From: Natronorubrum sediminis
Lineage (GTDB): Archaea; Halobacteriota; Halobacteria; Halobacteriales; Natrialbaceae
Assembly: GCF_900108095.1 (NCBI RefSeq)
Contig: NZ_FNWL01000003.1
Coordinates: 112,501-176,500, forward strand
Direction of reading: 5' to 3'
Length of the DNA: 64,000 nt
The position numbers and the translations under genes are program-made. The notes beneath the pieces are model-generated. The model saw only the letters and a list, made by a program, of their open reading frames with translations, had not been told where the DNA came from and did not search any database. Positions 11,216 through 13,248 of the stretch are shown piece by piece. Numbering within the stretch: the stretch's first letter is position 1; the number at the start of each line of letters is the position of its first letter.

Positions 11216-11617
11216 ATGACCGACGCGACCGCAAACACCGAGGACAGAGCAGGTGCCGAGCCGTTGGTTCGGCGCGGCGACGAAATCGACTACGCAGCCG
11301 TCGACGCAGCGGACGGCCTCGAGAAGGGTGTCTTGATCGCCGACGAACACGGCGCACCGAACTTCGCGATCCGTCGATTCGTCCTCGAGGCGGGCGCGGA
11401 GGTACCCGAGCACACGAACGATGTCGAACACGAGCAGTACGTTCTCGAGGGCGAGTACACGGTCGGGGTCGGAGACGAGGAGTACACGGTCGAAGCGGGC
11501 GACTCGCTCTTGATTCCCGCGGGAACGGTCCACTGGTACCGTAACGAGGGCGACGACCCGGGTGCGTTCCTCTGTGCCGTTCCCAACGGTGACGACGAGA
11601 TCGAGTTGCTCGAGTAA
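11216..11617 (+). CDS. Cupin-domain protein
   Basis: The 133-residue protein has one cupin fold. Motif 1 is EHTNDVEHEQYVLEGE with H/H/E-type ligands, and motif 2 is DSLLIPAGTVHWYRN with the last histidine. The barrel covers about 55-125. Small cupins are metal-dependent dioxygenases, isomerases or sensors, and the reaction here cannot be named. It is followed after about 107 bases by the quinone reductase-prenyltransferase fusion, possibly in the same transcript. Confidence 0.88.
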   Translation: MTDATANTEDRAGAEPLVRRGDEIDYAAVDAADGLEKGVLIADEHGAPNFAIRRFVLEAGAEVPEHTNDVEHEQYVLEGEYTVGVGDEEYTVEAGDSLLIPAGTVHWYRNEGDDPGAFLCAVPNGDDEIELLE

Positions 11618-11724
11618 CGACCGAGCAGCGAGTTGGGACGTTGCCTGCAGGTCGGTCGTTTCGCGTGGGGCAACTGTTCGAAGAGGACAACGTTATTTCT
11701 CGGGCCAGTGACGAACGAGACGAC

Positions 11725-13248
11725 GTGAACGTTCTCGTTATTCTGGGACATCCTCGAAACGAAAGTTTTGGCGGTGCACTGGCCGAGACGTATCGCGAGG
11801 GCTGCGTCCAGGCGGGCGTGAACGTTCGCTCGCTCGCCGTCAGCGACCTCGAGTTCGACCCCGACGTCCACACCGAGTGTCCGAGCGACCAGCCACTCGA
11901 GGACGACCTGGTGACAGCCCAGCGAGACATCGAGTGGGCGGATCACCTCGTCTTCGTCTACCCGAACTGGTGGGGTACGATGCCCGCGCAGCTTAAGGGC
12001 TTTTTCGACCGCGTCTTCGAACCCGGCTTCGCGTTCGCGGAGTACGAGGAGGGCGAGGGCGCGGGTCACGTGGAACTGCTGGACGACAAAACCGCCGAGT
12101 TGATCGTCACGATGGACATGCCGCCGTGGGTCTATCGTTGGGTCTACCGCCAGCCCGGGACGAACGCGCTCAAGCGCGCAACCCTCGGGTACGCGGGTAT
12201 CGAGACGACGCGGGTGACCGAGATCGGTCCGATCGAGGACTCCTCGCTCGAAGAGCGCAACGAGTGGCTCGCGGACGTCGAGGAGTTGGGGCGCTCGCTG
12301 ACGACGGGCCCGAAATCGAGGGCCACTCGAGCGAGACAGCGACTGACGACGTGGCTCGGCGCGCTCAGACTGCAGTTCTATCCGATGGCGTGGCTCGCGT
12401 ACACGATCGGCGCACTGGCCGCAGCGGACTCGAGTGCGGTCTTCAGTTCGCCAGCCTACTGGCTCGGACTCGGATTTCTGTGCTTCCTTGAGGCAGCGAC
12501 CGTGCTCACGAACGAGTATTTCGACTACGAGACGGATCGCGAGAATACGTTCGCCGGACCGTTTACGGGTGGCTCGCAGGTGCTGGTCGATAACAGAGTG
12601 TCGTTCGAGGAGATACGGCAAGGAATCGCCCTCACGCTCGGACTCGGCGGGCTGTTCGGAATCGCGACGGTCCTCACGACAGCGGGGTCGCCGATCGCGC
12701 TCTCGAGTGCGATGGTCGTCCTCACAGCGTTGGCACTTGGCTACACGGCACCGCCGCTGAAGCTGTCGTATCGAACCCTGGGTGAGGCGACGGTCGCCTG
12801 GACGCACAGTATCGGCGTGTTGATGATCGGTTTTCTCGTCATTGGCGGATCGTGGCACGTTCCGGAACCGTGGCTGCTCGGTGTTCCTTTCTTGCTCTCC
12901 GTCCTGCCATCGATCACGCTTGCCGGCGTCCCCGATTACGCGGCCGACCGGGCGGCCGGAAAGCAGACGATCGCCGTTCGCTTCGGACTCGCGGGCGTCC
13001 GGGCTGTTGCGATGGGAACGGCGCTGTTGGCTGCGCTGGTCGGACTCGTCTGGTACGGACGCGGTGTGGCTTCTCACGCGTACGGGCCAGTGATTTCACT
13101 GAGTCTCGGCCACGCCCTCGCGCTCTGTTGGCTGATCCACCGTCGATTGGACGGTACGGCTGGCTCCCAACGCATCGACGGCCTCATGCTCGCTTCCTTG
13201 AGCTACATCAGCTGGTTTGCTCTCATACCGCTTCTGGGACTCCTATAG
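11725..13248 (+). CDS. Fusion of flavodoxin-fold NAD(P)H:quinone reductase and UbiA prenyltransferase
   Basis: From a GTG at 11725 the product is 507 residues. Residues 1-195 form an MdaB/NQO1-type flavodoxin-fold oxidoreductase, with VNVLVILGHPRNESFG at the FMN/FAD loop and VYPNWWGTMPAQLKGFFDRV from about residue 78. From about 215 on there are eight or nine membrane helices of a UbiA/MenA prenyltransferase. Its first aspartate motif NEYFDYETD starts at 263 and the second DYAADRAAGK at 404. UbiA enzymes add isoprenoid chains to aromatic or glycerol acceptors. The frame is continuous with no stop, so this is a genuine single polypeptide. A longer frame to 11641 would need TTG and is less likely. 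Confidence 0.87.
   Translation: MNVLVILGHPRNESFGGALAETYREGCVQAGVNVRSLAVSDLEFDPDVHTECPSDQPLEDDLVTAQRDIEWADHLVFVYPNWWGTMPAQLKGFFDRVFEPGFAFAEYEEGEGAGHVELLDDKTAELIVTMDMPPWVYRWVYRQPGTNALKRATLGYAGIETTRVTEIGPIEDSSLEERNEWLADVEELGRSLTTGPKSRATRARQRLTTWLGALRLQFYPMAWLAYTIGALAAADSSAVFSSPAYWLGLGFLCFLEAATVLTNEYFDYETDRENTFAGPFTGGSQVLVDNRVSFEEIRQGIALTLGLGGLFGIATVLTTAGSPIALSSAMVVLTALALGYTAPPLKLSYRTLGEATVAWTHSIGVLMIGFLVIGGSWHVPEPWLLGVPFLLSVLPSITLAGVPDYAADRAAGKQTIAVRFGLAGVRAVAMGTALLAALVGLVWYGRGVASHAYGPVISLSLGHALALCWLIHRRLDGTAGSQRIDGLMLASLSYISWFALIPLLGLL

Follow-up and report, generated by a model that had tools for sequence, protein, structure and literature searches.

The haloarchaeon Natronorubrum sediminis carries a gene for a 507-residue protein in which a flavodoxin domain of the NAD(P)H:quinone reductase type is joined to a membrane prenyltransferase of the UbiA superfamily. 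The gene lies in the window, i.e. the whole stretch of 64,000 nucleotides of contig NZ_FNWL01000003.1 that was analysed, and all coordinates without a locus name refer to it. The same fusion is conserved in haloarchaea and in several bacterial phyla. It is apparently an undescribed combination of two known kinds of enzyme, as no description of a UbiA-quinone reductase fusion was found in the open-access literature, which is not the whole literature. On balance, we lean towards the view that the protein is a single-chain reductive prenyltransferase, in which the NAD(P)H-driven reduction of a quinone would be followed by prenylation of the hydroquinone, and which would act beside the main prenyltransferase of the cell.

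Prenylation needs an electron-rich ring, and it is seldom known how cells offer oxidisable quinone head groups in their reduced form to membrane prenyltransferases. A natural fusion of a reductase with a transferase makes the coupling of these two reactions testable within one protein. In addition, the fusion directs attention to a prenylquinone product, as yet unassigned, of haloarchaea, Geothrix and proteobacteria of the ubiquinone type.

The two domains are encoded by one open reading frame

The features of the locus are listed below, with the basis of each assignment in brackets.

11216..11617, + strand: Cupin_2 gene upstream of the fusion (Pfam Cupin_2)
11693..11698, + strand: candidate archaeal TATA box TTATTT (a TTATATA-type box at similar spacing in syntenic Natrialbaceae loci)
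11725..13248, + strand: fusion gene, 507 amino acids, NAD(P)H:quinone-reductase-type flavodoxin domain plus UbiA-superfamily membrane prenyltransferase (frame, Pfam, relatives)
11725..12300, + strand: reductase domain, residues 1-192, Flavodoxin_2 fold (Pfam 1-172, Foldseek, conserved core)
12301..12360, + strand: basic linker, residues 193-212 (short, of near-constant length, net positive)
12361..13245, + strand: UbiA prenyltransferase domain, residues 213-507 (Pfam 227-482, AF2, Foldseek)
12511..12537, + strand: Asp motif I, N263xxxD267xxxD271, here N263-E-Y-F-D267-Y-E-T-D271 (invariant in the 35-protein alignment)
12742..12747, + strand: predicted catalytic pair Tyr340-Thr341, equivalent to Y139/S140 of AfUbiA and Y174/T175 of UBIAD1 (Y340 invariant, T341 in at least 90% of 35 proteins)
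12934..12948, + strand: Asp motif II, D404xxxD408, here D404-Y-A-A-D408 (D404 and D408 invariant)

In N. sediminis, one frame is open from the GTG at 11725 to the stop codon ending at 13248, with both domains inside it. Pfam detected Flavodoxin_2 at residues 1-172 (E 3e-34) and UbiA at residues 227-482 (E 1e-19) of the product, and the AF2 model of the full protein has a pLDDT of 88.3 and a pTM of 0.72. The original prediction, that a domain of the quinone reductase family and a UbiA prenyltransferase form one polypeptide in an uninterrupted frame, is borne out by the open frame, the Pfam matches and 35 two-domain relatives. The same end-to-end architecture, with linkers of near-equal length, is present in all 35 aligned proteins; the identical fusion in many independent genomes rules out a frameshift or a misassembly. 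Against three relatives, rough dN/dS is 0.09-0.19 in the reductase half and 0.16-0.26 in the UbiA half, so that purifying selection acts on both.

Because the frame is open that far upstream, an in-frame TTG at 11641 is a possible earlier start. It is the less likely one, given that the haloarchaeal relatives begin at a GTG/ATG-AAC matching 11725 and given the position of the TATA-like box, which in the syntenic Natrialbaceae precedes the start of the fusion by ~27-32 nt. The position of TTATTT is consistent with a leaderless transcript that would be made from a promoter of its own and would start near GTG 11725.

The N-terminal half has a Flavodoxin_2 fold

The reductase half scored 118.8 bits against PF02525 (gathering cut-off 27). 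Its best PDB matches in Foldseek were 3lcm (Smu.1420), NQO2 and 4r81 (the NQO of M. marburgensis), with E-values of 1e-8 to 4e-8, and the MdaB structures ranked below 3lcm, NQO2, 4gi5, 4r81 and NQO1. Hence, of the label "MdaB/NQO1-like" that had been given to this half, the Flavodoxin_2 family and the NQO-type fold stand, but MdaB is not the closest relative among solved reductases, being more distant than the three best matches.

The stand-alone NAD(P)H oxidoreductases of the Flavodoxin_2 family (3lcm Smu.1420, NQO2, 4r81 and the bacterial proteins at loci L050-L087) have the same fold and conserved core, and the bacterial ones are 44-53% identical to the N-terminal half of the fusion. At least 90% conservation in both the fused and the stand-alone sets was found at 43 positions, including YPxWWG..PA..KGF.DR and TMDxP. 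The stand-alone proteins differ in being single-domain, and phylogenetically the fused reductase halves split cleanly from them as a separate clade (100/99). The Flavodoxin_2 family also contains azoreductases, FMN reductases and the regulatory KefF, so that "quinone" is what we infer from the family.

KefF, a member of the Flavodoxin_2 superfamily, binds a membrane protein and regulates the KefC channel. By analogy, the reductase domain could sense the redox state and turn the prenyltransferase on or off accordingly, instead of supplying its reduced substrate. There is a weak match to the KefF model, but at 30.5 bits it is far from the cut-off of 210, and the core positions are conserved as in the stand-alone enzymes, which makes a sensor highly improbable.

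The C-terminal half retains the UbiA active site

PF01040 matched the fusion with 70.9 bits (gathering cut-off 34.2), and the UbiA half modelled alone by AF2 gave a pLDDT of 91.6 and a pTM of 0.90. A sequence search of the PDB with this half returned no match; only the fold search did, to AfUbiA (4tq3, E 4e-6), UBIAD1 (8djk, TM 0.77) and ApUbiA (4od4, TM 0.78). In AfUbiA, residues N68, D72, D76, Y139, S140, D198 and D202 bind Mg2+ or sit at the forming bond, and the equivalents of N263 and D267 are Mg2+ ligands (PMC4106721). These seven residues correspond to N263, D267, D271, Y340, T341, D404 and D408 of the fusion, all of which are invariant or nearly so. Both Asp motifs had been described as intact, and they are: N263, D267 and D271, as well as D404 and D408, do not vary among 35 sequences. 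K413 is as invariant as D404 and D408, and Asp motif I is also kept in three homologues that consist of the UbiA half only. The Asn upstream of Asp motif II that is typical of MenA is absent, with L-A-G-V-P-D replacing N-N-x-R-D.

The linker between the halves varies in length by ~3 residues or less, and its residues 195-209 carry a net charge of +1 to +6 in all 35 aligned sequences. In UbiA proteins the Asp motifs are on the cytoplasmic face of the membrane (PMC4106721). A basic linker ahead of TM1, read with the positive-inside rule, would make the reductase a cytoplasmic domain and thereby put it on the face at which the UbiA active site lies.

The fusion is found in haloarchaea and in three bacterial phyla

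In a genome scan, many Natrialbaceae proved to have the fusion over its full length, as did MAGs labelled Natronomonas and Halococcaceae. Bacteria with the fusion were Geothrix (Acidobacteriota), Litchfieldella, Pseudomonas duriflava, a Burkholderiaceae MAG and Lutibaculum (Pseudomonadota), and Gemmatimonadetes MAGs. Evenly sampled genomes gave matches in 23 of 292 members of the class Halobacteria, 22 of them Natrialbaceae; all 23 are fused, single-copy and without stops. The fusion was present in 5 of 369 Gammaproteobacteria and, at full length, in 2 of 289 Alphaproteobacteria, and close members were found in 10 of 247 Acidobacteriota. Pfam placed both domains in one chain in each of the 35 aligned relatives from haloarchaea, Acidobacteriota, Pseudomonadota and Gemmatimonadota. 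The phylogenetic spread, which had been named as a check of the fusion, thus extends over haloarchaea and several bacterial phyla. The part of the original prediction that looked to the haloarchaea in particular is not supported, as the family is broadly bacterial and the haloarchaeal branch is nested within it. The phage records searched contained no match.

Relatives with the halves unlinked and unrelated in occurrence had been named as evidence against a functional pairing. The halves largely occur together: besides the 23 fused proteins of the Halobacteria, no reductase sequence of the fused clade was found apart from a UbiA half in the bacteria sampled. However, three Holophagaceae MAGs have the UbiA half only (see below).

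Public annotation hides the fusion, since the sole annotated full-length copy that we saw is named "NAD(P)H-dependent oxidoreductase". It is that of plasmid NZ_CP121115.1 of Roseinatronobacter sp. S2 (L201), for which no more than this name is given; its neighbours on the plasmid are genes for a sigma-70 factor, PRC-barrel proteins, a catalase, a SOD, a ferritin-like protein and a cytochrome P450. In Natronolimnohabitans sp. A-GB9 (L042, 6001-7182), ~114 UbiA residues from TM1 to TM4, including Asp motif I, are deleted in frame while the reductase is intact. This is a candidate natural UbiA knock-out, or else an assembly artefact.

Origin, transfer and partial loss

Phylogenies of the UbiA half group the fused proteins in one clade (support 100/99 and 100/100), with MenA and MenA-like proteins as its sister group (99/97). 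Pairwise distances measured in one half follow those in the other (r = 0.94). A single clade for each half, together with these correlated distances, points to one fusion event and to a fusion that was kept intact across phyla, so the fusion probably arose once.

The haloarchaeal sequences form one clade beside the sequence of a soda-lake Gemmatimonadetes MAG, nested among bacterial ones. The archaeal branch lies within the bacterial branches, which excludes a haloarchaeal invention of the fusion; haloarchaea most likely acquired it from bacteria, with the binning of MAGs as a caveat. Within the Natrialbaceae, a shared site with the cupin gene upstream and a helicase gene downstream (L012, L013, L014, L019-L021, L024, L028) contrasts with other sites lacking these neighbours (L009-L011, L016-L018, L022), which indicates that the fusion has moved or was gained more than once.

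In the three Holophagaceae MAGs (L045, L047, L048), a UbiA half on its own occupies the position after ispE at which Geothrix has the fusion, and these proteins are nested in the fused clade. The reductase half was not found anywhere in the three genomes, and all UbiA motifs are retained. Thus, the reductase was lost and the transferase kept, which speaks against the UbiA half being a mere anchor. The reductase is dispensable in these Holophagaceae, and its loss with retention of the UbiA motifs suggests that it is the reductase that works for the transferase, rather than the other way round.

Gene neighbourhood

Clustering of the ORFs within 6 kb across lineages, complemented by manual inspection, revealed no neighbour common to different phyla. 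Within lineages, ispE, a gene of isoprenoid supply, is located directly upstream in every Holophagaceae locus examined, including that of Geothrix; in L045, the UbiA-only gene starts just ~120 bp after it. G888, a more basal genome of the Acidobacteriota, has an mqnC-like gene that ends ~77 bp before the fusion on the same strand; this gene scored 422 bits, just under the curated MqnC cut-off of 428, and the adjacency occurs in one genome. These neighbours are suggestive of a lineage-specific tie of the fusion to isoprenoid quinones.

The cupin gene shows mostly ~80-87% identity among syntenic Natrialbaceae, where it adjoins the fusion, and is absent at other locations of the fusion; it is probably not part of the fusion system. 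The cupin and helicase genes were considered as operon partners of the N. sediminis fusion and rejected, as theirs is a local synteny only. At two haloarchaeal loci (L207, 6771-8054; L023, 3934-5217), the fusion is immediately followed by a FAD_binding_3 (hydroxylase-like) gene in the same orientation, with 94% identity between the two copies.

The two domains might also act separately: the reductase would maintain the reduced state of mature membrane quinones, or of toxic free ones, and an unrelated prenyltransferase would serve simply as its membrane anchor. Flavodoxin_2 quinone reductases are detoxifying as a rule, and stress genes lie near some of the fusions: those for catalase, SOD and ferritin-like protein in Roseinatronobacter, DUF892 and YflT genes at L035, and a hemerythrin gene at L203. 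The idea of a stress island, suggested by the Roseinatronobacter plasmid, was discarded, because L035 and L203 echo it only weakly and most loci show nothing of the kind. The lack of stress genes at most loci, one specific pairing with a near-constant linker across several phyla, and fused-clade reductases that in the sampled bacteria do not occur apart from a UbiA half all count against separate action, which we regard as distinctly unlikely.

The fusion is distinct from known quinone prenyltransferases

MenA is the nearest characterised family of the UbiA half, with which it shares NxxxDxxxD, the catalytic Tyr, DxxxD and GK.T.AVR.G. The best score of the fusion against MenA models was nevertheless 38.6 bits (cut-off 264), and the other models gave 21-33 bits for cut-offs of 225-555. 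In the tree, the MenA references group on their own, and the fused clade is adjacent and outside. The second MenA motif, NNxRD, is missing, with A/S-x-x-PD in its place: P403 is invariant at the R position and there is no Asn. NNxRD is present in the MenA proteins of E. coli, haloarchaea and myxobacteria, although the reference cyanobacterial MenA also deviates from it. Moreover, unlike MenA, the fusion has a reductase and is found in genomes without MenB.

MenB exceeded its cut-off in 10 of the 21 fusion carriers tested (nine haloarchaea and one Gemmatimonadetes MAG). HPPD did so in five of the 21, none of them haloarchaeal, and a canonical ubiquinone UbiA in eight Pseudomonadota carriers. 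We therefore rejected three identities: MenA, because of the low model scores, the position outside the MenA clade, the missing NNxRD and the limited occurrence of MenB; homogentisate prenyltransferase, because HPPD is rare among the carriers and absent from the haloarchaeal ones; and ubiquinone UbiA, because the eight Pseudomonadota have a separate canonical one. Since the fusion occurs in makers of menaquinone and of ubiquinone, many of which lack MenB, HPPD or both, neither the dihydroxynaphthoate of the Men route nor homogentisate can be the common acceptor.

Besides the fusion, the N. sediminis genome has eight further matches to the UbiA family, including a MenA above the curated cut-off and a DGGGP synthase, and Geothrix has an MqnP-like protein. 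The presence of separate canonical prenyltransferases in most carriers examined indicates that the fusion adds to the main quinone prenyltransferase and does not replace it. Two of the other UbiA-family proteins of N. sediminis (L006 and L008; G000:C2:85310-85960 and C3:40483-40944) have very long branches and fall outside every reference group used.

These data bear on the possibility that the fusion is an extra MenA or MqnP, whose acceptor would be the ordinary dihydroxynaphthoate of menaquinone biosynthesis, with the reductase keeping this easily oxidised compound reduced in air. The sister relationship to MenA, menB above the curated cut-off in haloarchaea and in genome G300, and the mqnC-like neighbour in G888 would fit such a role. 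On the other hand, MenB was below the cut-off in the 11 other carriers tested, and seven of the eight Pseudomonadota with a canonical ubiquinone UbiA lack a strong MqnC match. The fusion scored 21-39 bits against MenA models and lacks NNxRD, and N. sediminis and Geothrix already have a MenA and an MqnP-like protein of their own, respectively. We consider this role unlikely.

Proposed reaction and comparison with known systems

In the reaction that we favour, reductive prenylation, the cytoplasmic domain, with its presumed flavin cofactor, would take a hydride from NAD(P)H as the probable donor. It would then reduce a free quinone, probably of the naphthoquinone type, to the hydroquinone. The UbiA active site, which is predicted to open on the flavin-domain side of the membrane, would transfer a polyprenyl chain to the ring, which reduction has made nucleophilic, and we infer that both active sites share one substrate. 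Physiologically, the protein might salvage, repair or remodel the head groups of quinones, or it might make a minor prenylquinol.

A precedent is UBIAD1, the vertebrate MK-4 synthase, which has the UbiA fold of the fusion (8djk, TM 0.77). In vitro, it makes no MK-4 from menadione without DTT, which is assumed to reduce menadione to the hydroquinone (PMC4398444). Coupling of reduction to prenylation is for this reason chemically sound, and the original proposal that the acceptor is reduced before prenylation is, by this analogy, plausible. UBIAD1 has no reductase domain; in the fusion, the reductant that menadione use needs would be built in. Two observations weigh against reductive prenylation, namely that the ubiquinone-type carriers have no obvious source of naphthoquinone and that the UbiA-only transferase of the Holophagaceae manages without a tethered reductase.

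The acceptor might also not be a quinone at all: a phenazine, a flavin or some further redox-active heterocycle could be prenylated while reduced. The UbiA-type Mpz10 can prenylate phenazines and the soluble PpzP prenylates reduced phenazine (PMC4044012), and no quinone-pathway gene is common to all carriers. The kinship to MenA and the mqnC-like and ispE neighbours point the other way, and a non-quinone acceptor seems very unlikely to us.

Returning to reductive prenylation of a quinone, a more specific version can be put forward tentatively, as a possibility that we consider doubtful. The fusion would then represent a new, single-chain and NAD(P)H-driven type of enzyme that captures free quinones devoid of a side chain and converts them into membrane prenylquinols. 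Archaea that use menaquinone and bacteria that use ubiquinone would thereby have a salvage or remodelling process independent of the Men, Mqn and Ubi pathways, and its product would be an undescribed lipid.

NDC1/QR2 of phylloquinone synthesis in plants and cyanobacteria provides an example of a quinone reductase as a dedicated step beside MenA, as proposed here; however, it is a protein separate from MenA and reduces after prenylation, before methylation (PMC8133638). The closest described proteins of the type "redox enzyme plus UbiA" are the IspH-UbiA "Rosetta stone" fusions of sulfate reducers, in which a redox enzyme is likewise N-terminal to a UbiA-type domain and whose genomes have a separate UbiA/MenA (PMC4746011). 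In those proteins, the partner IspH makes the prenyl donor, whereas the reductase of the present fusion would prepare the acceptor.

N. sediminis has a second fused UbiA protein (L001, G000:C1:500977-501723), in which a CtaA-like N-terminal membrane region precedes a domain of heme O synthase (CtaB).
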